Assembly: GCF_003073045.1 (NCBI RefSeq)
Contig: NC_037603.1
Location: 16,064,192-16,128,191 of the forward strand
Reading direction: 5' to 3'
Length of the DNA stretch: 64,000 nucleotides
DNA from: Pomacea canaliculata
Lineage: Eukaryota; Mollusca; Gastropoda; Architaenioglossa; Ampullariidae
The notes under the pieces are model-generated. The model was not told the origin of the DNA. It saw only the letters and a program-made list of their open reading frames with translations, and ran no database searches. The translations under genes were made by a program, and so were the position numbers. Shown here piece by piece: positions 29,476 through 63,928 of the stretch (position 1 is the stretch's first letter; each line of letters opens with the position of its first letter).

Positions 29476-30913
29476 GACTAGTGCATATATACCTCCTGAT
29501 GGAGGAGTTCATGGCATTTACAATCTTCACACATGTTGCATACACAGACGTGCTTGCACGTGCACAAATTATTTATTTTGAGCCTACTCAAGATGAGGGT
29601 AACCTGGTGAGATTTAACCTTTTTCTTCAGCACAGTACCAATAATCTGGAGAAGAAATTGAGCTAAATTTTCAATCAGAATTAAAAATATATCTCATCAT
29701 TGGACCCGAACAAAAAACTACAAATGGGCGACCATGACCAAAAACTATACCCTACTTCACTTTGACCTCACTTTAGAAACAGTCATGTGAATCTTTACAG
29801 AGATGTCTTACCGTTGGGATTTGTTTTATGGATGTAACTGGCAAAGTCACACGTGCGTGTAAATTAGCACACGGTCAATGCTCACCGAACCGTTACAGAC
29901 ACCCCGTATCTCCGCACGAAGCAAGATTAACCATAATAAGGCTCACAGAACAGTTATAAGACAAAGATTAACAACAATAATAATGTTCAGAAGAGTTATA
30001 AGAGAAAAAGAACTATAATTATGCTCGCACATCACTGCCAAAAATCAGATTAATAATGTTCCCAAAACGGCCACAGGTCTTCTGACCTCAAATACTTGCG
30101 CAAAACACAATCATAAGAGCAATATCTGTTACAAGTGTTTATCTTTAGGTAGACAAAATGACCTCGACTGTCCTCATTTGCCATGAAAGGAAAAGGGTAT
30201 GTCGCAGGAGGAATTGGCAGATTACATCATAGGGTTTACAAGATACTTGTGTGCGTTTGTGAGCCTGACAGTAGGGGATAGCGGCGTGGTCACTCACAGA
30301 ACCGATGAACCGACTATTACATTTCGTTTACAGTCATCTGGGTGGAAATGTTGAAGAGCAACCATTTAACAACTTTGAGGAAATACCACCATTTTACTAA
30401 GCGTCATCACAAAATGTAACATACGAGGATGGGTGGGGAGATGATGGGGTGAGGCTACCAGTCTGTATGACAGTATTAACTTCTAATGCCAGCACGAGCT
30501 ATATGTATGACTGTCTCTCGCACACACACAAGAACGTGGAAAACTTTTAGCAGTACCAAGAAAACTGAAGAGCATTGCAAGCACATGGAAGGGTGGGTTC
30601 GAATAAGAGATAGTAACTAGGGACCCAACCTTCTCACTGATTACTGGACAACATCTGGCGAGCTCTGTTGATGACGCCATTAAAATACAACGCTTGCAAG
30701 TCACGAACAGCTATCGGACGTCTTGATTTAGTATTTATTTCCCTCCTTCCCTTAAAAAAAATGTCCAGGCAATGTCGGTCAGATCAACTGATTACGTACA
30801 TGCGTACAATGTGTTTGTGTGCACGTACGCTCACTCAAGCACATCCAACCTCTTTCAAAAGCATTCATTGTCAGAAGGTGCGCTACAAACTTAGATGTTG
30901 ATATCTATCTCCT
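29476..30913. other. Intergenic, no gene recognised
   Basis: No coding block or repeat that I can support. Confidence 0.4.
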
Positions 30914-31360
30914 ATTACATTACTGTTGTTCACTGTCGTCTCACACATTGCACCGTTTGTTCACTAACATTACACAGTGTTGTTCACTGTAATACACGAC
31001 AGTATTGGTTTACCGTCATCATAATTACAGGAGGGCATTGTTCATGTCATCGCCTTCACATGGCAGCCTTGTTTACGTCATCATGCGTTACAGAACAACT
31101 TTGTTCATGTCGTCACGAAATTACGCGTCATCATTGTTCATGTCATAAATTTCAAAACAATATTCATGTCATCGTACATTACATAACAGTGTTATGTCAT
31201 CCTATATTACAAAACAGCATTGTTCACATCATCAAACAAGACAGTACTGGTTATCTCATCATATATTACAGATCATCATTGCTCACGTCATCATATTATG
31301 GAAGAGGTTTGTTCATGTTATCAAATTGCAGAACATTATTCATGTCATCATAAATCAAAA
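30914..31360 (+). repeat. Degenerate tandem array with GTTCATGTCATCA-type core
   Basis: Between these points the sequence repeats a loose unit of roughly 40-50 bp: ATTACAGAACA-like text, then TTGTTCATGTCATCA-like text. The core recurs about ten times with heavy drift (GTTCATGTCATC, GTTTACGTCATCA, GTTCATGTCGTCA, GCTCACGTCATCA, TTCATGTCATCA). The open frames here follow the repeat and are not evidence of a gene. Confidence 0.65.
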
Positions 31361-32409
31361 GAAATGCTAGTGCTGGATCGACTTCGATACACTTTTCTTT
31401 AATTATCAACTTGTTTCTTCACTCTTTGCTTCCAACAGTCATTATTTTTGTACCACGCTCCCTACAGCCAACCACCGTCACAGTCCTGCTGCGCACCGGA
31501 CCATGTCACTTCGTATTATCAAAAGAATCTGCTGCCTACCATTTATTCACATCTTTCTTTGAGGGACAAAAGCCCAGAAGGAGCTCTCAAAACCGATGCC
31601 ACCAGAGTTTTAGTCAGTGCCAGTCGGCTGCCACCCGAGGACCGGGACAGGCTATAAAAGAGATTCCACAGGTGGGCTGACCAGCGCTTGCTGATAATCA
31701 ACTGGGCTGCAACAGGTGGGTGACCACTATAGATAGGATGTTCTGAGAACAAACTTTTGCAAGTCTCGATACGTTTGGATAATGAAGGATCTGGCAGAAA
31801 CCAAGTCCCTCTCTACCCAGTATTTTGCTTGATATATTTATTCTAATTAATTCATTTAATGTTTTAATTCTTCTTCTTCTTCTGCTGATCGATAACTACA
31901 AAAGAAAGGCTTGAATGACGGAATGAAGAAAAGGAAGTAAAGAAGGTCGAAGACGGGAAATTGGTGTTTGATTGATTGGCTCACAGGAAATGGCAAAAAT
32001 AATCTGGAAATTGAAAAAACGCAAATAATGCTCATTCTGTGATAAGCGACACGTGTCGCCGAAGATTTTTATTTCATTTTTTCCGGTCATTTCTAACCCA
32101 ATATTTTGTATCTAGTGTTGCCTAAACAGAAGATTTATTAACTATTTTTGACCACGATCCGAATAACGATTCTTTTAGGTTCCGTTATAGGTCTATTTGT
32201 TACGGTTAAAAGTTAACAAGAGCAGTAAATAAAATTTAGTTGGAGATGACAGCAAAAGTTAAACCGGCAAAGATGGTAGTCATAGCCCGTTATAGTGCTT
32301 GTCGTGGTTATCATTCGTGTCGTAGCTGCAGATAGTAGCAATAGCACTATGTAGGGTGATGTCTGCGAGGTCTCAGAAAGGGTCACGTGATTTCTGTGCA
32401 GACCACAAG
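31361..32409. other. 5' flank of gene A
   Basis: Holds the presumed promoter of the secreted-protein gene A. No clear TATA box or other element. Overlapping frames at 31411-31752 on both strands show no domain. Confidence 0.4.
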
Positions 32410-35400
32410 ATGCGAACTCTGCTGCTGCTGATGCTGGTGGGCTCCGCCCTCACGCAGACGACCACCCACAAGCCCAACATCTTCCAGAGCCTGGGCAGTG
32501 TCTTCTCAACCACCTTCGATTCTCTGACGGTCTCTGTTCTCACCTGTCTTGTGTCAACTGACGGTCTCTGTTCTCACCTGTCTTGTGTCAACTGACGGTC
32601 TCTGTTCTCACCTGTCTTGTGTCAACTGACGGTCTCTGTTCTCACCTGTCTTGTGTCAACTGACGGTCTCTGTTCTCATCTGTCTTGTGTCAACTGACGG
32701 TCTCTGTTCTCACCTGTCTTGTGTCAACTGACGGTCTCTGTTCTCATCTGTCTTGTGTCAACTGACGGTCTCTGTTCTCACTCTGTCTTGTGTCAACTGA
32801 CGGTCTCTGTTCTCATCTGTCTTGTGTCAACTGACGGTCTCTGTTCTCACCTGTCTTGTGTCAACTGACGGTCTCTGTTCTCACCTGTCTTGTGTCAACT
32901 GACGATCTCTGTTCTCACCTGTCTTGTGTCAACTGACGGTCTCTGTTCTCACCTGTCTTGTGTCAACTGACGGTCTCTGTTCTCACCTGTCTTGTGTCAA
33001 CTGACGATCTCTGTTCTCACCTGTCTTGTGCCAACTGACGGTCTCTGTTCTCACCTGTCTTGTGTCAACTGACGGTCTCTGTTCTCATCTGTCTTGTGTC
33101 AACTGACGGTCTCTGTTCTCACCTGTCTTGTGTCAACTGACGGTTTCTGTTCTTACAGATATTTGAAATATGTGTGTGTGCGCGCGCGCACGTGTTTATA
33201 TGTGAAGGTGTACACTTATATAGTATTGGTGTTCTCTATAATGGATATATATCTTTCTCAGGATGCTCTTGGAGACTACTTGAAAAGCCAGGGCACAAAT
33301 CTCCTGCATAATCTGCTTCCCAGTCTGGCAGGAGAGTTCCTTCAGAGTAAGCTTCTGTAGAGATATTTGCCTCCCCTGTGTATGTGTGCGTGCTTGCGTA
33401 CGTCCGTGAAAAGAGAAAACTTTTATTTAAAGGAAAAAATAGATCATTAGTAAAGTCCTCATCCTTCCTTTGAGGTTCTTCATTTGGTCTCTGACTAGGC
33501 TCAGCTTATTATCATACTAAATACGATGTTGATGATAACAGTGTGAAGCCCCAGTCTCTACTGACGATCATGGCGATGTGTTGACAGGTGGCCTGTGGAG
33601 TTTGGTAGATGCAGCCATACACCCGGGAGGGACACCCGCTACTGGCAAGCGCAACATTGCTGAGTAAGTAGAACGTACTGCTCACATCATCATCTGCATG
33701 CACGTGCACATGCATGAGGGACCCGAGCTCAAGAACACGCAACTAACCCACAGGTCTGGCGTCCATGCACACACATTCATTTGCACCTCTCTTATATATA
33801 TATATGCGTGCACACATTATAAGCTGTTATTTATAAACACTGAGAGATGATAATTGTAGCTTGAAGTCACCATGAAAAGGTTTTTCGTGTTTGTTGTTAA
33901 AAACAAAGCAACAATGCGACGGTAAAGACAACTGTTTTGACGATGATGACGAAGGTGATGATGATGATGATGAGCAAAATGACATGATGATGATAATAAT
34001 GATGATTAACAGGGATCTGGAGAGTCTGAAGCAAAGTGTGCAGCTGGTGCTTCACCAGGCGGAGGCTGAAGCGGAGGACATCAAGCATGCTCTTCAGAGT
34101 CTGGTGGGCAAAGTGCTGACCGGCCAGCTGTCGCTCACCGAGTTCCAGCAGTTGGTCCCCAAGTTCCAAGGTGGCGATCTTCTCCACAACAATTTTTGTG
34201 CTCAGTTGTTTGTTGGTACAGCTCTGCTAGTTTAGCCACAAGCCAGAGAACAAACAATCAAACAGACATAAAAACAAATAAAAAAGAACAATAAAAATAT
34301 TTTCAAATAAATAATTAAATTACTTGTTTGAATAAATAAAGAAGGAAAGTAGAAAAATGTCAATTAACCGACCAGTTCACGACTATTACTGGCAAAAGTC
34401 ATTTTATTCCGATGTTAAACTTTTAAAGTACTGAATAAGTCTGCTCTTTTGAATATGAGCAATACAATTGTGTCTTCATATTCATTCATCTCGAAACTGG
34501 CGAGGTGTTCGCGTTACCAGTCGTAGGAGAGCTCTGATGGCAGTGCTCTGGGGATCTTCTCAGGCACTGCTGCACTCCATCAAATGTCCCCTTCGTTGTC
34601 TCTTTTACCTGCACGCTAATGATTACTGATTTAATATCTTAGACAATAAGAACGTAGATGATGCTGAGTGTACGACTGTTGTCACAGAGATAGCTAACGA
34701 GCTGCTATCCAAGCTGAGAGAGGGAGTGCTGACGGAGGTACACAAGTTGGCAGGCAACAAGAGGGAGTTACTGGACCTCAGCCTTCTAACCCACCTGCTG
34801 CAAGGTCTGGAGACTCAGGGCCAGGCGGTGAGTCAACGAGTTCCTTCATCCACCCTATTTCATGGCCCCCTCCCTATCGTCTCTCTACCTCGCCCTCGAT
34901 GAAGCTCCGTTTAATGGAGTAAACATTGCGGCAGATCTTCATTTTTTAAAATTATTATTTTGAATTCTGTACAGAAATAACAATACTGACTCCTGTGTGA
35001 TCGAATACGAAAGCTGGCTTTATATTCTGTTAAAATGTCTCTTAAAATTTCTACTGTGTGTATGTTTGTTTTACAGCTCTTGCGTGTAATAATGTGTGTA
35101 AGCTATAACGTGATTTAGTTCAAATTCTTCTGTGTTGACTAGTCACGGTGTACAGAACTTTATGGTCTACACATCTTCGCTGACTGCACATGCTTTGTTG
35201 GCCTTGTCTTCATCTCATCACCAGTCACACCCCGCATTCAGTGGAAAAAAATTGACAGTGAAATTGTGTGTGCAGGTCTTTGGCCAGGTGCTTCAAGAGA
35301 TCCAAGCTTTGGCTAACCCTGGCAACTTACTGTCCCTCCTGACTGAAGCTGCCAGCAAGCTGGGCTTGACCAACGTCTTGGGTGCGTTTTTCACGCACAT

Positions 35401-35621
35401 ACACACAGGCGCGCGCACACACACACACACACAAGCACGCACACACAAGCACACACACTCAAGCACACAGGCGCACACACAGGCACACACACACACACGC
35501 ACGCACGCACGCCATTCGCTCGACACGCTATATACAATTATTACACTAATAATCCATTAGTTGTGTAAGTGTGTGCTGCTGTGTTGATGTTCCAGGCTCT
35601 TTGGCCGGTTTGATTGGCTAA
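32410..35621 (+). CDS. Secreted helical protein of an unrecognised family ('gene A')
   Basis: Seven exons: 32410-32529, 33262-33346, 33588-33663, 34013-34170, 34643-34827, 35276-35381 and 35596-35621. Phases agree throughout, giving about 251 residues. The start MRTLLLLMLVGSALTQ is a signal peptide; an in-frame ATG at 32356 would spoil it. The mature chain is leucine- and alanine-rich amphipathic helix: LGDYLKSQGTNLLHNLLPSL, LKQSVQLVLHQAEAEAED, TEIANELLSKLREGVLTEVH and SLLTEAASKLGLTNVL. One cysteine (DDAECTT) is seen. Residues 84-95 (HPGGTPATGKRN) are the only loop-like part, with a GKR that could be a processing site. Every donor is GT and every acceptor AG, but the first donor (ACG/GTCTCT) is weak and lies at the edge of the minisatellite. 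AATAAA follows at 35693. Paralogue of gene B at 63233. Role unknown; a lipid-binding or glandular secretion protein is a guess from helix content. Confidence 0.75.
32524..33150 (+). repeat. 34-bp minisatellite at the first splice donor of gene A
   Basis: About 18 head-to-tail copies of CTGACGGTCTCTGTTCTCAC plus CTGTCTTGTGTCAA. Most copies are identical or differ by one base (a TCATCTG variant, a GACGATC variant, one copy with two extra bases). The first copy starts inside exon 1: its CTGACG is the last six coding bases, and GGTCTC spans the donor. The last copy decays to GACGGTTTCTGTTCTTACAG, which resembles an acceptor. The unit is not a multiple of three and carries stops, so it cannot be translated through. 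Confidence 0.93.
33941..34008 (+). repeat. GAT-rich simple repeat
   Basis: Imperfect GAT/GATGAT microsatellite just before the acceptor of exon 4 of gene A; it takes the place of a normal pyrimidine tract. Confidence 0.7.
35390..35515 (+). repeat. CA/CACACG microsatellite in the last intron of gene A
   Basis: Imperfect (CA)n with interspersed GCGCAC and AAGCACAC units, starting a few bases after the exon 6 donor. The open frames on both strands here are due to the repeat. Confidence 0.85.
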
Positions 35622-35692
35622 GCTGACCAGTAATGTCTGGAGCAGTACAGCGAGGTGAACACTCGTCACGATCGAGCTGTTGGTCAACTAAA

Positions 35693-35698
35693 AATAAA
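35693..35698 (+). promoter_or_regulatory. Poly(A) signal, gene A
   Basis: AATAAA 72 bp after the stop codon, fitting a short 3' UTR. Confidence 0.55.
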
Positions 35699-35870
35699 AG
35701 AAGAGAAATGTTAATTGAAAGAGTTTTTTCTTGCGGCATGGTTGTTTACACTGCGAAATTTAACATGGAGGCTTGTTTAGACCGCGAGTACGTGGCACTA
35801 CACAACACGACGTGAAATGACACATTACAAATGACACATTACTACGTCATACTACCACGTACTAACGTGT

Positions 35871-36177
35871 ATAGGTGGACTGCTGTCTGTCTGCCGCGAC
35901 AAATGCTTAGCCTCTTGCCTAGTTCTCCACATGAATGCACGAACTTGTATTGCTGGCAGGCGATTTTTTCCAGTTAACTGCTCAAACGAGGCAGGTGTGT
36001 ACAAAGCTTCCGGTTTATTCACATTCATTGTTTAGGCTTACCGAGACTAACAACGGAGAACTTCGCAAGAGGTTAAGTGTTGATGAATGTTACTAAACCG
36101 GAAACTTTGTATACATCAGCTATTTTTAGTAGTTAACCGGGAAAAAAATCGTCTGCAAGCAGTCAAGTAATACAAGT
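35871..36177. mobile_element. Palindromic MITE, copy 3 (most complete)
   Basis: 35943-36177 is a 235-bp near-palindrome. The left arm ACTTGTATTGCTGGCAGGCG ... CAAAGCTTCCGGTTTA matches the reverse complement of the right arm TAAACCGGAAACTTTGTATA ... GCAAGCAGTCAAGTAATACA. A further inverted piece (35871-35934) of the same family precedes it. Arms of about 85 bp and no coding content mark a foldback-type or MITE element. Copies 1 and 2 lie at 1737 and 11796. Confidence 0.75.
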
Positions 36178-37232
36178 TTGTGATACTACACAACACAACA
36201 CTTACTACCTTACACTGTGCACATCGCATTACACGACACTGTGAACAGTCACACCACTAACTATATACACAACACAACTTACTCGCACCACACAGCAATG
36301 ACTACATATCGCATTACAAGCATGAAATGCTTTCCACTGTTCAAATTCCCAGCACATCGTTTACACTTGAAACCACTGTCAGTTTTATGATGGCAAGCGC
36401 TTTCATGACAGGTAATCTCTTGTAAGTCTGAAGGACAAGCGACCGAATGTGATGCCGAATGAAATGATATTATTTGAGCGTTCACTGAAATAACATCGTA
36501 ATGTCTGTTCACGATCTCAATTCAGTCCTGTTGCGATTCTGTTTATTACATGACACAAGATGAAAATGATTATAGAGATAACATTATGTCAAACAAACGA
36601 AATGATCCTCTTTTTATATCAGAATTTTTTTTTTTATATTTAGGATGTCATCAAGTCATAAACAAAGTTTGTATATATAAATAGTGTCCACACACACGAG
36701 TCAAATGTTATGAAAAAATCTGCAATCTCGTTTTTATCCTGTGATTACCCCCACTCTAACAATACCACACTAAGTAGCCGCGTACTGACCATCCTCCAGG
36801 ATGTAGTCCCTCTTCAGGAAACTCGCAGCTGCAAGAGCAGAAATGTGCATCCTTGGCAGGTGAATGTACACACTCACACACACAGACAGCAACCTAACAC
36901 ATCTACCTGACTACACTAACAGGTGAGTGCATGACCAACGATGCCGTGGACCCGAAGTTGGCACGCACTGATTTTTTGTTTGTTGGTTGGTTGGTGTGGT
37001 TTTTTTTTGTTTTTGTTTTTGTTTTTTTTATGTTTGTTTGTTGTTTTTTGTTTGTTTTGTTTGTTTGTTGTTTTTTTTTTTGTTGTTCATTGAGATTTTC
37101 TGGGCTGTGTCTGATAACAGTGAAAGACAACTTCCTGACTATCATCTGATAACAATGAAACACAACTCAGATACTGCATCGTCTGCGGAGTGAAAAGTTG
37201 TCTTTCTCATCTGTCTTCATTGTTGAGTCAGT
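36178..37232. other. No gene recognised; T/G-rich tract
   Basis: 36970-37088 is an irregular (TTTG)n/poly-T tract. On the minus strand at 36840-36802 a phrase reading ASFLKRDYILEDGQYAAT sits after CTCTTGCAG, but it is too short and isolated to call. Confidence 0.4.
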
Positions 37233-37919
37233 TCAGTCATCAACACAAAGCTTTTTGTCATTGTCGTCACTAATGTCCCTGTCATCAACGTCATCTCTTT
37301 TCTGTTCCACGAACTCATGTTTGCCGTGAGGAATGCTTTGCGGACCATTGTCATGATGTTCAGTATTTCTATAGGACAGGTGAGGTGGGAGGTATGGAGG
37401 ACACTGTTTACCTGTGTCGTGTAGACTGCTGATGGACTTCATCGTGAGAAAGCCAGTTACAGTGACAGCCATAAATTCCTTCTCAAACGGCTTTGATTTT
37501 CTGAGTAAAACCAGTCGTGGGCTGTTTGTAACGGGAACCGGCGCGTCATCAGCCCCGCTGGCACAACTTTCAGCACCGACGCGAGTTATCTTCGCTTCTT
37601 CACGGTTGTCTGTCAGGTGGTAGGGCGGTCTCAGGTGGAGGTGTCCACCGACCAGAAGTTCTGGCTCCATGTCGTGGTGCTCCTCCTCCTCCCAAGATGT
37701 TGTCTTTTTGTGGAAACAGCTGAGAGCAGTGAGGCAGGAGGAGAGGCTTTGAGTCTTCTTTCCTTTCTTGACGACGTCAGCGACGTCAACATGGACGTCA
37801 GACGAGCCGCCGGGTCCACGTGAGGCTGACATCGTTGAGTTTGGTGTTGGAGGCGATGAGAGTTTGCAATGTGCCATCAACTTTAAAGGTGAGCTTAGAC
37901 CAAGTGGTGTTTCTTCCAT
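37233..37919 (-). CDS. Hypothetical ORF or exon, acidic C terminus
   Basis: An open frame of 228 codons from ATG 37919, the longest single frame in the left half of the window. It could extend upstream to an acceptor-like TTATAG near 37981 (TGNDVFHKYQPSPKVFIRII before the ATG). It has no signal peptide or membrane span. Middle part is Ser/His/Glu-rich (TTSWEEEEHHDMEPEL); the end is strongly charged (KRDDVDDRDISDDNDKKLC). No domain is recognised. Overlapping frames of 60-69 codons run on the plus strand, so base composition may be keeping several frames open. It may be a last exon of a minus-strand gene or chance. Confidence 0.38.
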   Translation of the reverse strand: MEETPLGLSSPLKLMAHCKLSSPPTPNSTMSASRGPGGSSDVHVDVADVVKKGKKTQSLSSCLTALSCFHKKTTSWEEEEHHDMEPELLVGGHLHLRPPYHLTDNREEAKITRVGAESCASGADDAPVPVTNSPRLVLLRKSKPFEKEFMAVTVTGFLTMKSISSLHDTGKQCPPYLPPHLSYRNTEHHDNGPQSIPHGKHEFVEQKRDDVDDRDISDDNDKKLCVDD

Positions 37920-39068
37920 GATTATTCTGATGAAAACCTTGGGCGATGGCTGATATTTATGGAAGACATCATTGCCTGTCTATAATTATTTCTTCTAGAA
38001 AACCGAGATTTGACGTTTCGGGGTAGAAAATTTAGTTAAACTTTTTCCACAGTGACTAAACACTGATAGGCACTCTTTGTTTAAGCCTTCTTCTACAGTT
38101 TCAGTGACAGGATTCAACCAGAACGGTTTCCCACACTGAGTAACCTGATGTCAAAGTCCGTAAATCGGTAAATCATTCCGAAAGACATTTTTAGTTTGAA
38201 TGCTAAGTTCTGTGTTCGCACTTCAACGCCCTCACACGAGATGACGGATGTCCAATGTTTTCAGATGCTCACCACTTTGATGTGACACTTGACAGTCAAG
38301 GGAAACAACTGCAGGCAAATCGTTATCTCTTTGAAAAACCCTTAAACTCTTAGTCCCTCAAAATAGACATGATAGCAAAGCAAAAGTTCTTTTTCCTTCT
38401 ATGTCTTTGATCGTCCGTCCGTCCGTCCGTCCGTCCGTCCGTCCGTCCGTCCGTCCGTCCGTCCGTCTGTCTGTCTAGGCGCTGCTCCTATATTGCTATC
38501 CTACACCACTATCTTGTAGCTTTTGGTTCTCTGTATCTATAATGAATGTACTGTGCTAAGTTATCTGTGAAGAACGTGCTATAATCATGCTATACTCCGT
38601 GCTAAATGTGCTTGGCTGTATTATGTGTGATGAATGTGTAGTACAGAACTATGCTTTGCTATCTGGAGGATTCATTCACAGGCCCGTCTGCCCTCCTCAA
38701 GTCTCCGAGAGCCTCCCTGAGCGTCGCTTGTGACCCTCTCGTGTTGGGGTCAAGGTTCAGTGTGGACAAACAGCATTTTGTAATGAAAGAATTACTAGTC
38801 CAGCTTCAACTCCATTTCCCCGCTTTCTGTATCAATCTGTTTTCGTAGCAAGTGAAAGTGAGTATTCTGAACGGGAGAAAGATACATAGTAAGAGAAGTG
38901 ATTGGGTGAAGAAATGAATAGAGTAGGAGTGAAAGAGTAAAAGAAAAAGGTATTGGAAGATTGAGTGATAATGTAGTGAAGCCGGCCTGAGTCCATCACT
39001 CGCCGATTATTGCCGACACTTTGAGAAAAGATTACGACAGTAGTTCTACACCAAGTGTTGCTCCTCTT
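37920..39068. other. No gene recognised
   Basis: Contains the CCGT microsatellite (38412-38477) and otherwise unremarkable sequence up to the rDNA-derived block. Confidence 0.4.
38412..38477 (+). repeat. (CCGT)n microsatellite
   Basis: About 13 perfect GTCC tetranucleotides followed by three GTCT variants. Confidence 0.95.
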
Positions 39069-41055: not shown

Positions 41056-41526
41056 TGTTACGACCGTAGCGGTAACTTGGCTCGTTTAAAGATCTGGAAA
41101 TCTGCTGTGTCACACTTTCCCGTACAAAGTCACTTCAGTCATCCGTTGAACAGAAGATAGAACACGTATACAGCGGCTCACACTGTAAATATTTCTCAGT
41201 ATTATTTCAAATGTTCAACAACTCAACGTTATAATCACATAATTCAGCGGACTGCCACACAGGCTACTCCATCCTCTTATTTCCAACTCACACAGAGTGC
41301 TACTAACAAACTCACACAGAGTACTACTAACAACTCAGAAAAATCGAATAACGGGACCACCTAGGTCTTACCCAGCTTTTTATAGATCCCTTCAAAAATG
41401 CTAAAAATGCAAATTGTTCTAAAAAAAAAAATATTAAAAAAATTAAGACGCAGTACGCCCTGGCCTTTGACAATCGCCACTTCCTGCCAAGGCCCCGTCA
41501 AACTAAAAATACTCAATTTCGTAACA
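41056..41526 (-). repeat. 3' LTR of the 18S-inserted element
   Basis: 471 bp, pairs with 46637-47096. It shares CGTAGCGGTAACTTGGCTCG, CACACAGAGTGCTACTAACA, AAGACGCAGTACGCC and CTCAATTTCGTAACA with the other LTR. The two differ mostly by small length changes. Confidence 0.9.
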
Positions 41527-46636: not shown

Positions 46637-47096
46637 TGTTAGACGACCGTAGCGGTAACTTGGCTCGTTAAAGATCTGGAAATCTGCTGTGTCACACTTT
46701 CCCGTACAAGTTTCACTTTCAGTCATCCGTTGAACAGAAGATAGAACACGCGACTATACGCGGCTCACCTGTAACGTATTTCTCAGTTTATTTCAATGTT
46801 TCAACACTCACGTTATAATCACATAATCAGCGGACTGCCACACAGGCTACTCGCATCTCTTATTTCCAACTCACACAGAGTGCTACTAACAACTCACACA
46901 GAGTACTACTAACAACTCAGAAAATCGAATAACGACCACCTAGGTCTACCCAGCTTTTAAATAGATCCCTTCAAAAATGCTAAAAATGCAAAATAAAAAA
47001 AAATATTAAAAATTAAGACGCAGTACGCCTCTGGCCTTGACATCGCCACTTTCCTGCCAAGGCCCCTCAAAACTAAAAATACTCAATTTCGTAACA
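46637..47096 (-). repeat. 5' LTR of the 18S-inserted element
   Basis: 460 bp, with the same start and end as its partner. The tRNA-Pro-type primer-binding site follows directly (46621-46636 on the plus strand). Confidence 0.9.
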
Positions 47097-48402: not shown

Positions 48403-49012
48403 TTACCTTCCCCTGCCTTGTGCACGCCTCCCCTAGCACCAGGCAACGCCCCGAGCCAGACCTCCGATCTAGACCCTCCGCACCAGACCCTCCGCACAGA
48501 CCTCCGCACCAGACCCTCCGTTCGGTTTATACTTGAACGAAACGAGGTTCCCATAAGTTTCTAGCATTAAATTGAAGTTACTATAGCTAGAAGTGTGTTT
48601 TCAAAGTGTTGCCACCAGACCCTCCTCTATGCACCAGACCTCGATCGAACCATTCAGTTGGCACCAGACCTCCGCACCCGACCCTCCCTTTCAGTATACT
48701 TGAAGAAAACGACGTACCCCTAAGTTTTTTTCGACTATCAAATAGAATTACTAGTGAGTGGAAGTGTGTTTTTCAAAGTGTTGCACCACACCCTCCCCTC
48801 GAACAAACATTTTCAAAGTTTGGCACCAGACCCCCGCACACAGACCTCCTGTTTTGTATCCTTGAAGGAAACGAGGTACTAATGAGTGGAAGTGTGTTTT
48901 CAACCCTGAGCGCTCATTTGCCGATGAAAAAAACACAACTGGGTGAGCATTTTATATCTAGGAAACTTTCATTCTTGACACGGTTCCTTTCGAGCACCTT
49001 TCGGGACGCCTG

Positions 49013-49032
49013 CTCCCCATATATATAGCGCC
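49013..49032 (-). promoter_or_regulatory. Spacer-promoter-like box
   Basis: CTCCCCATATATATAGCGCC on the plus strand, in the conserved setting TTTCGGGACGCCTG before it and GACCTTGACCATCCCTGCC after it. Confidence 0.5.
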
Positions 49033-49448
49033 GACCTTGACCATCCCTGCCTTGTGCCACGCCTCCCATTGCACCAGGCCCTCCGGGCACCTGACCCTCC
49101 CTAAGCACCTGACCCTTCCAAGGCACCAGGCCCTCCGCGCACCTGACCCTCCCTAAGCACCTGACCCTCCCCCTGCACCAGGACCTCCGGGCACCTGACC
49201 CTCCCTAAGCAGATGACCCTCCCATTCAAATGGTTTGGCGAAAAGTTTTTTCTTTTTTTTTGCACCAGACCCTCCTCTCTGCACCAGACCCTCCCTTTCA
49301 AATGGTTTGGGGAAATGTATTTCTCCGTTTTACTCCAGACCCTCCCTTTTCCGCGACTTGCCGGTGAAAGATACACAACTGGGTGAGCATTTCATATCTA
49401 GAAACATTCTTTCTTGACACGATGCTTTCGAGCACCTTTCGGGACGCC

Positions 49449-49470
49449 TGCTCCCAATATATATAGCGCC
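49449..49470 (-). promoter_or_regulatory. Spacer-promoter-like box
   Basis: CTGCTCCCAATATATATAGC on the plus strand, in the same conserved setting as the box at 49013, which lies 438 bp away. Confidence 0.5.
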
Positions 49471-50000
49471 GACCTTGACCATCCCTGCCTTGTGCCACGC
49501 CTCCCATTGCACCAGGCCCTCCACGCACCTGACCCTCCCAAGGCACCAGGCCCTCCGGGCACCAGACCCTCTTCATTGCACCAGACCCTCCCATTCAAAT
49601 GGTTTGGGGAAAATTATTTCAAAGTTTTACACCAGACTCTCCCTCTTCCGCGACTTGGCGAACACCAGGTAACCTAAGCTTTAAATGCAAAAGTGAAGTA
49701 GCTTGAGCTAGATTAAGAATTTTTGCACCAGACCCTCCCCTCTTTCGTTAAAAAAAAAAAGGGGGGGGGGAAAGTGCTACGGCCTGAGCGGCTAATGGCC
49801 TGGTCCTGCCACCCTAACCCACCAGACCCTCCCATTCGATTGGTTTGGGGAAATTATTTCTAAGTTTACACCACACCCTCCCTCTTCCGCGACTTGGCGA
49901 AAATCAGGTACCCAAGCTTACTTCAATGCCAAACATCGAGTTTAAGTTCATGGCCAGAATTTAAGTGTTTTGTACTAGAGCCTCTTCCTTTGCTCCAGAA

Positions 50001-55489: not shown

Positions 55490-56480
55490 GATACACAACT
55501 GGGTGAGCATTTCATATCTAGAAACATTCTTTCTTGACACGGTCGCTTTCGAGCACCTTTCGGGACGCCTGCTCCCAATATATATAGCGCCGACCTTGAC
55601 CATCCCTGCCTTGTGCCACGCCTCCCATTACACCAGGCCCTCCACGCACCTGACCCTCCCAAGGCACCAGGCCCTCCGGGCACCAGACCCTCTTCATTGC
55701 ACCAGACCCTCCCATTCAAATGGTTTGGGGAAAATTATTTCAAAGTTTTACACCAGACTCTCCCTCTTCCGCGACTTGGCGAACACCAGGTAACCTAAGC
55801 TTTAAATGCAAAAGTGAAGTAGCTTGAGCTAGATTAAGAATTTTTGCACCAGACCCTCCCCTCTTTCGTTAAAAAAAAAAGGGGGGGAAGTGCTACGGCC
55901 TGAGCGGCTAATGGCCTGGTCCTGCCACCCTAACCCACCAGACCCTCCCATTCGATTGGTTTGGGGGAAATTATTTCTAAGTTTTACACCACACCCTCCC
56001 TCTTCCGCGACTTGGCGAAAATCAGGTACCCAAGCTACTTCAATGCCAAACATCGATTTAAGTTCATGGGCAGAATTTAAGTGTTTTGTACTAGAGCCTC
56101 TTCTTTGCTCCAGAACCTCTTGTTCAACTGGTTTGGCGAAAATTATGTTTAAGTTTTGCAACAGACTTTTCCGTGACATGGTGAAAATCAGGTAAGGTTT
56201 AGGTGTAAAAGTGAATTAGCTTGAGCTAGATTAAGAATGATTGTTTAGCGGGCTGTTCCCGGTTTGTTATTCTGGGTCTTCTCCCCTAGCCTGACTAAGT
56301 CTGTAGGTAATAAGCTTTTTCACAAGCGACAGGCCAGCGGTACATGGGTAGAGACGCATCCCACCCGGACCTTCGTTTCAAGTTCACGGCTGCCCTCTCA
56401 GCCTGCAAGTATTGTTAACGGCTGCCGACACTGTGCTTGGTTTTGCTCATAGTCGCGGCCGTGGTACCGCCGCGTACCAT
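55490..56480 (-). repeat. rDNA-type spacer, right of the LINE
   Basis: The first ~630 bp (55490-56120) repeat 49370-50008 almost base for base, so the LINE is flanked by direct copies of the same spacer segment. It then continues into CTTGTTCAACTGGTTTGGCG and the distal segment shared with unit 1. The promoter-like box is at 55569-55590. Confidence 0.8.
55569..55590 (-). promoter_or_regulatory. Spacer-promoter-like box
   Basis: GCCTGCTCCCAATATATATA on the plus strand; duplicate of the box at 49449. Confidence 0.5.
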
Positions 56481-58210: not shown

Positions 58211-59020
58211 TTTTACCTTCCCTGCCTTGTGCCACGCCTCCCCTAGCACCAGGCCCTCCGCACCAGACCCTCCGATCTAGACCCTCCGCACCAGACCCTC
58301 CGCACCAGACCCTCCGCACCAGACCCTCCTGTTCGGTATACTTGAACGAAACGAGGTTCCCCTAAGCTTCTAGCATTAAATTGAAGTTACTAATAGCTAG
58401 AAGTGTGTTTTCAAAGTGTTGCACCAGACCCTCCTCTATGCACCAGACCCTCCGATCGAACCATTTTCCAAGTTTGGCACCAGACCCTCCGCACCCGACC
58501 CTCCCTTTCAGTATACTTGAAGAAAACGACGTACCCCTAAGCTTCGACTATCAAATAGAAGTTACTAGTGAGTGGAAGTGTGTTTTCAAAGTGTTGCACC
58601 ACACCCTCCCCTCGAACAAACATTTTCAAAGTTTGGCACCAGACCCTCCGCACCAGACCCTCCTGTTCTGTATCCTTGAAGGAAACGAGGTACTAATGAG
58701 TGGAAGTGTGTTTTCAACCCTGAGCGCTCATTTGCCGATGAAAAAAACACAACTGGGTGAGCATTTCATATCTAGGAAACCTTCATTCTTGACACGGTTC
58801 CTTTCGAGCACCTTTCGGGACGCCTGCTCCCCATATATATAGCGCCGACCTTGACCATCCCTGCCTTGTGCCACGCCTCCCATTGCACCAGGCCCTCCGG
58901 GCACCTGACCCTCCCTAGGAACCTGATCCTCCCTAAGCACCTGACCCTCCCAAAGCACCAGGCCCTCCGCGCACCTGACCCTCCCCCTGCACCAGGCGTG
59001 AGCGACTATTGACCTGGTCC
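58211..59020 (-). repeat. rDNA-type spacer, unit 2 upstream
   Basis: Tandem CACCAGACCCTCCG repeats (six in a row at about 58250-58330) and the longer GTATACTTGAAGAAAACGA blocks also seen at 48530-48900. One promoter-like box lies at 58829-58848. Confidence 0.8.
58829..58848 (-). promoter_or_regulatory. Spacer-promoter-like box
   Basis: CCCCATATATATAGCGCCGA on the plus strand, in the same setting (TTTCGAGCACCTTTCGGGAC) as the other spacer copies. Confidence 0.5.
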
Positions 59021-63232: not shown

Positions 63233-63928
63233 ATGAAGGTTGCTGTTGTTGTCGTGCTGCTTCTCGTCGCTGGTCAGCTGCCCAAGAATGAGGCTGCCTT
63301 CCTGAGTTCGCTCGGGGACTTCTTCAGCAGCGCCTTGGAGTCGTTCAGCAACACGGCACTGCAAGCGCTCGCCAACGTTGGAGAGCGACTTCTCCGCAAT
63401 GTGACTGCAACCACCACAGGCCTCTTGTCGGAGACAGGACAAAGTGTGTCTAAATACATATTATATATACTATTGATATGTGCTACATATACTTTACAAA
63501 GCCTTTATCCAATACATCTGTATTCAGCTTCGCTCTTTCTTTGCATGAAAAAAACACTTGAAGTGATTCCTTGCTCCAAATGATTTTCAAATGATTTCTT
63601 TGTGAGATCAGCGCTCTTTTCCACAATTATTACTACCATTAAAAAAAAAAATTGTTCGGGTTGTTAAAAAAATTGGTACGCATGCGAATAGATACCGACT
63701 CAGCGTGCATGTTGTTTCTACTAACCTTATCAGACTTCTTCTGTTACCAAACAAACTAAAGCGCTAAGGCATGCTCCTTAGGAGACTGTCGGACTGTTTG
63801 TGTCGATGCTTGTCATTGTATAACCCAAACCTTTACTTTAACTGTTTTGCAGTGTTGCTCTTTGAACTCGGCGACCTCGCAAACTCTAAGAGCGGAACCG
63901 GAAGTACAGGTGGAAAGCGTGACCTCAG
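63233..63928 (+). CDS. Secreted helical protein, paralogue of gene A ('gene B', partial)
   Basis: Exon 1 63233-63443 and exon 2 63853-63928; later exons are beyond the window. It begins MKVAVVVVLLLVAGQLPKNE, a signal peptide in a good start context (CCACCATGA). The mature part FLSSLGDFFSSALESFSNTA and LQALANVGERLLRNV is amphipathic helix with an NVT glycosylation site. Exon 2 ends SGTGSTGGKRDLR. Compare gene A: FQSLGSVFSTTFDSLT, NLLHNL and GGTPATGKRNIAE. Exon 2 here and exon 3 of gene A are both 76 nt, entering in phase 1 and leaving in phase 2. Gene B's first exon (211 nt) covers the part that gene A splits into two exons (120 + 85 nt). Function unknown. Confidence 0.75.

Follow-up and report, generated by a model that had tools for sequence, protein, structure and literature searches.

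How did an intron that one gene possesses and its paralogue lacks come to open inside a tandem repeat? The question is raised by a window of 64,000 nucleotides of Pomacea canaliculata DNA (contig NC_037603.1, positions 16,064,192 to 16,128,191, forward strand; coordinates below are those of the window), which contains two related genes, here called A and B, whose models are predictions from reading frame, splice sites, and mutual homology. A 34-bp minisatellite lies on the predicted border between exon 1 and intron 1 of gene A, and this intron is absent from gene B; that observation is confirmed. The explanation favoured here, to which we assign a probability of about 0.55, is that a minisatellite private to this locus grew over the 5' splice site of intron 1 and that the array alone was not the maker of the intron.

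Tandem Repeats Finder (TRF) places the array at 32524-33153, with a period of 34 bp, 18.5 copies, 97% matches, and a score of 1195, in agreement with the approximately 18 copies of a 34-bp unit described in a first-pass annotation of this DNA. Eighteen full copies (17 of 34 bp and one, copy 8, of 35 bp) are followed at the 3' end by a partial copy, which reads GACGGTTTCT. Eleven of the full copies equal the consensus, and copies 1-4 are identical to one another. As for variants, CAC is changed to CAT in copies 5, 7, 9, and 17, a single T to C change occurs in copy 15, and GACGGT reads GACGAT in copies 12 and 15, so that these two have no GT at the donor position. Divergence is highest in the 3' partial copy, and the copy at the 5' edge, on the exon side, equals the consensus. 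The array looks young or well homogenised. Its unit is 68% pyrimidine, and AG is found only once within 32524-33158, at 33157, leaving 32524-33156 without any; a stretch of more than 630 nt that is free of AG and at the same time carries 19 branch-point-like CTGAC motifs is an observation in its own right. Another concerns the minus strand, on which the unit contains a near-consensus donor, CAG/GTGAGA, with a score of 7.14, higher than all 10 plus-strand donors scored in genes A and B.

Genome searches, which covered the 440,159,624-bp assembly in 24 contigs, returned the array locus only. When up to three mismatches were allowed, the unit gave 17 matches in the assembly, all of them inside the array (the 35-bp copy falls outside the pattern), and a DNA search of the genome with two units found no locus besides the array itself. 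Within 291,808 bp around the array, the best other match to the unit had 11 mismatches in 34 positions. The idea that the unit derives from dispersed or mobile DNA was therefore rejected, and the 34-bp repeat, being without matches elsewhere in the assembly, looks locally born. The same searches bear on introner-like elements, which would explain an intron present in only one paralogue: unlike such elements, the unit occurs at a single locus and showed no dispersed similar copies, the 103-nt intron tail beyond the array having been searched only within other queries.

Gene A is predicted to have seven coding exons (32410-35621) that encode 251 residues, and gene B five coding exons, which start at 63233, run beyond the end of the window, and encode 250 residues. 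The two proteins are 32% identical, and their whole-length alignment scores 202, whereas shuffles average 59.1 and none of 500 reaches that score. Four introns are common to both genes, with phases that agree (1, 2, 1, 0). Exons 1 and 2 of gene A (120 + 85 nt) face a single exon of 211 nt in gene B, and both arrangements end in phase 1, so that the contrast drawn in the earlier annotation is borne out by the models. That annotation named only intron 1 as peculiar to gene A; there are in fact two such introns, intron 1 (phase 0, 732 nt) and intron 6 (phase 1, 214 nt). The latter has an ordinary donor and acceptor, together with a CA-rich tract (35396-35510, TRF) that begins 14 nt past the donor, differs in kind from the 34-bp array, and lies off the border. 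Since a second intron is also missing from gene B, the difference between the paralogues need not involve the 34-bp repeat. It is conceivable, with odds somewhat short of even, that two introns of the common ancestor, one at the start and one at the end, have disappeared from gene B; intron loss in gene B was the other option offered by the earlier annotation. Such a loss is compatible with the favoured explanation, and the odds of the two are not exclusive. The introns peculiar to gene A flank the four shared introns, one on either side, as loss in gene B would have it, yet two separate precise losses are required.

A third relative that might bear on the direction of change was not found: genome searches in which the query was A, a 52-residue piece of A, or B recovered just the exons of the query gene itself, searches that are insensitive and would miss distant relatives, because A did not even find B. 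A profile built from A and B placed only the exons of these two genes above the inclusion threshold in the 291,808 bp searched. Searches of Pfam, NCBIfam, and solved structures gave no match for the family that could be trusted; the best Pfam match of gene B, Apolipoprotein (E value 0.00013), reached 22.2 bits where the cut-off is 90 and was rejected, and Rfam gave no match in 30000-38000.

Everything that concerns the splice site depends on where exon 1 ends. According to the first-pass annotation, the array starts exactly on the splice donor; its left end in fact lies 6 nt upstream of the proposed donor and covers the last six coding bases of predicted exon 1, a detail that the annotation had itself recorded correctly. 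The further claim that the exon/intron border is repeated in every copy needs correction for copies 12 and 15, as the 9-mer ACGGTCTCT is present exactly in 16 copies. Under random placement in gene A, the left end of an array would fall within 6 bp of one of the six donors in 2.4% of cases; for either end and all 12 borders, at the same distance, the figure is 9.7%. The coincidence is suggestive, not strong, because the border itself is read from the first GT of the array.

As the donor in copy 1 is weak, the border was placed by homology and frame and not by donor strength. Among 101 GTs tried with the acceptor at 33261, six leave the full frame open to the natural stop. The GT at 32530 is preferred among these because it gives an ungapped 40-residue alignment of A with B across the junction, with a score of 71 against a shuffled mean of 29.6 (0 of 2000 shuffles); this alignment fits removal of the whole intron at approximately this junction. 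When the 16 GTs within ACGGTCTCT were combined with both available acceptors, only copy 1 joined to 33261 produced an intact protein, and the failing combinations in copies 1-6 led to products that stop after 53 to 90 residues. We infer that exon 1 ends at 32529 and that copy 1 supplies the donor in use.

Several results weigh against this placement, or against an intron older than the array. With splice-site scores computed from generic consensus frequencies (not trained on P. canaliculata), the copy-1 donor reaches -4.01, compared with 1.08 to 5.75 (median 2.09) for the nine other predicted donors of genes A and B, and among the window's 3718 GTs, 41.8% do at least as well. It is the only donor among the 10 introns with a pyrimidine at +3, and it lacks G at +5. 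So weak a donor would not be expected for an old, well-spliced intron. In addition, a stronger in-frame GT (score 3.38) exists at 32437, and exon 2 aligned alone does not match B at the corresponding position. Its score against residues 18-70 of B, obtained at another place, is reached by 21 of 2000 shuffles, and that against the whole of B by 148 of 2000. The match of exon 2 to B thus rests on collinearity.

The weakness of the donor would be accounted for if the splice model were wrong, with exon 1 ending elsewhere (e.g., at 32437 or within the first copies), or if the haplotype were damaged, the array having overwritten a good donor to leave a poorly spliced allele. Room for another exon end exists, as GTs that keep the frame number six with the acceptor at 33261 and two with that at 33158, and 32437 is the strongest of the six. 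Use of 32437, however, would cost the protein 31 residues, some of them in a stretch that aligns with B (for the mature part of exon 1 alone, 4 of 2000 shuffles reach the alignment score), and this donor was rejected; the other four in-frame GTs score from -5.0 to -10.85. Moreover, the seven exons keep an intact frame of 251 residues, and four intron phases match those of gene B. A faulty model or a damaged allele is for these reasons considered unlikely.

At its 3' end, the array runs into a second candidate acceptor. The partial copy together with the next two bases reads CTGACGGTTTCTGTTCTTACAG (33137-33158) and contains a branch-point-like CTGAC, a pyrimidine tract, and TACAG; it scores 3.2, compared with 2.9 for the coding acceptor at 33261, which is situated 103 nt past the end of the array. 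The first-pass annotation held that the final copy had drifted into an acceptor. Its acceptor-like character stands, but the same sequence could equally be the older state; the partial copy may be the oldest one and not a drifting one. In combination with the first donor, the acceptor at 33158 breaks the frame and yields a truncated product of 90 residues, and it was rejected as the coding acceptor. It keeps the frame with only 2 of 86 GTs (32553 and 32580), which would add 42 and 51 residues, respectively.

Did the array nevertheless make the intron? It had been proposed that tandem duplication of exonic sequence created intron 1, a proposal that is not supported: only 6 of the 34 bases of the unit are exonic, the unit contains no AG, the acceptor lies outside the array, and exon 2 matches the unit no better than shuffled sequences do. 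Because it has no AG, the unit supplies neither an acceptor nor an AG/GT proto-splice site. Local alignment of the unit was carried out under a strict and a loose scoring scheme with seven stretches, namely exon 1 before the array, the last 60 bases of that part, the 200 bases upstream, the intron tail, exon 2, its first 50 bases, and exon 1 of gene B. Between 139 and 496 of 500 dinucleotide shuffles reached the observed scores (322 to 496 for exon 2, for the part of exon 1 that precedes the array, and for exon 1 of gene B), and an exonic source for the unit, its first six bases apart, was rejected. Given the missing AG, the lack of an exon-like source, and the distance to the acceptor, the sequence speaks against the view that the array alone furnished intron 1.

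A broader version of the idea holds that intron 1 arose when an exon still in one piece gained sequence at the point CTGACG, by insertion or expansion, and that gene B keeps the ancestral exon. Gene B has no intron there, the end of the array resembles an acceptor, and tandem repeats occur near the donor in both introns peculiar to gene A, although the repeat of intron 6 is of the other, CA-rich kind noted above and off the border. The weak copy-1 donor speaks for a young intron, which insertion of the array plus the tail could have created; novel Drosophila introns have been reported to have weaker splice sites (PMC2809761). Such an intron would be tolerated because unspliced or misspliced RNA contains early stops and is degraded, and unspliced read-through indeed stops after 61 codons. 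Multiple intron gains have been reported in the hemocyanin genes of Caenogastropoda, including P. canaliculata (PMC8599328); however, that report calls the high rate of gain specific to the hemocyanin gene. With the absence of AG, the remote coding acceptor, the missing exon-like source, and the truncated protein obtained from the acceptor-like end and the first donor on the other side, an intron made by the array appears improbable. Still more doubtful is an extended form in which the array is both maker and rheostat of the intron: an insertion with 19 CTGAC motifs, 16 weak donors, and no AG over approximately 630 nt would have split an exon of gene A, and repeat number would set the level of correct mRNA, since only the first donor and the far acceptor yield protein, with the remainder passing to nonsense-mediated decay.

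Tandem duplication of an exonic AGGT segment is a described route of intron gain (Rogers type), for which ATP2A1 and 24-bp repeats in fission yeast genes (PMC4974935) as well as Drosophila cases (PMC2891723) have been reported. Gene A shares with these the tandem copies, an intron that extends over several copies, and a homologue without the intron; unlike them, it has hardly any exonic source and an acceptor beyond the array. No AG/GT that could give both splice sites was found in the unit, nor does an exonic segment recur at the start of the next exon, as neither exon 2 nor the part of exon 1 ahead of the array resembles the unit more than shuffles do.

A closer likeness is offered by the 'mirages' of amphioxus, i.e., minisatellite-like repeats in which intron/exon borders are duplicated in tandem, reportedly without disturbing splicing, and which are described for the globins BflGb6 and BflGb9, Adh3, and PGBD5 (PMC3087553, PMC3902484). 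Edge copies are reported there to escape homogenisation, and mirages have been proposed as a source of new introns (PMC3087553, PMC3902484). In gene A, the tandem units likewise include the predicted border, with 6 nt of exon 1, provided that exon 1 ends where we place it. The gene A array differs in its unit (34 bp with six exonic bases, in 18.5 copies, versus 10-72 bp in Adh3 and about 150-160 bp in the globins) and in its molluscan setting; its exon-side copy equals the consensus, its 3' partial copy is the one that has diverged most, and normal splicing is here a prediction. By analogy, the best reading of the array is that of a mirage minisatellite of the amphioxus kind. Human IFI6 (6-16) reportedly also contains a minisatellite with multiple splice donors, which is said to have a short unit and strong donors in use. 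The gene A minisatellite carries donors as well, but these are weak, and its unit shifts the frame; in the frame computation, one copy of the sixteen gave an intact protein.

The favoured explanation can thus be put as a sequence of steps. The intron would predate the array, we infer, and the 34-bp array would have expanded in place across the 5' splice site of intron 1, presumably by slippage or unequal exchange. The exon/intron border would thereby recur in each unit, which would make the array a mirage as the term is used for amphioxus. To obtain the paralogue-like protein of 251 residues, the GT of copy 1 (32530) would have to be joined to the acceptor outside the array, at 33261, and the remaining GT copies and the acceptor-like array end would act as decoys whose use with 32530 or its partner truncates the protein.

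Table 1. Predicted features of genes A and B and of the 34-bp array (window coordinates).
Feature	Position	Strand	Description	Basis
Gene A exon 1, coding part	32410..32529	+	40 codons; signal-peptide-like start; ends in phase 0	gene model, alignment with B exon 1
34-bp minisatellite	32524..33153	+	18.5 copies	TRF, copy listing, genome pattern search
Proposed donor GT	32530..32531	+	array copy 1, ACG/GTCTCT	copy listing, donor scores
Gene A intron 1	32530..33261	+	732 nt; phase 0; not in gene B	gene model
3' partial copy and following bases	33137..33158	+	ends in acceptor-like TTCTTACAG	copy listing, acceptor scores
Intron 1 non-repeat tail	33159..33261	+	103 nt; ends in TCTTTCTCAG, the coding acceptor	
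Gene A exon 2	33262..33346	+	85 nt; ends in phase 1	gene model
Gene A exon 3	33588..33663	+		gene model
Gene A exon 4	34013..34170	+		gene model
Gene A exon 5	34643..34827	+		gene model
Gene A exon 6	35276..35381	+		gene model
Gene A intron 6	35382..35595	+	214 nt; phase 1; not in gene B	gene model, TRF
Gene A exon 7	35596..35621	+	with stop	gene model
Gene B exon 1	63233..63443	+	211 nt; uninterrupted at the matching point	gene model
Gene B exon 2	63853..63928	+		gene model
Gene B exons 3-5	64351-64532, 64736-64905, 65292-65405	+	beyond the window (window numbering)	gene model

Other repeats occur in the window, whose GC content is 40.7%. A tandem unit, CAACTCACACAGAGTACTACTAA, is found at both 41284-41337 and 46867-46919, 5.6 kb apart (TRF). 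Arrays of the GCACCAGACCCTCC type recur at 48456-49591, 55631-55712, and 58246-58997, and reading frames with long common stretches lie at about 47.8-49.0 and 57.6-58.8 kb; together, these arrays and frames suggest a duplicated segment. Beyond the window (in window numbering), a 30-bp unit is repeated 11.1 times at 77050-77383, and a long array of units of about 156-157 bp occupies 164281-168861.

This is a modest, well-defined case and no demonstration of intron birth, and the real oddity of the gene A array is the recurrence, in sixteen copies, of one very weak donor. No molluscan minisatellite on an intron border was seen among the titles and opening lines of abstracts surveyed, which does not prove that none has been published. 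If the splice model holds, the locus would extend the mirage type of amphioxus, a minisatellite lying across an exon/intron border, to an animal outside the chordates, and the similarity of its copies would point to recent turnover and perhaps to differences between individuals. The array is a natural test of how the spliceosome makes its choice when faced with many identical weak donors; compared with outgroup snails, the locus could show whether such arrays accompany intron gain.
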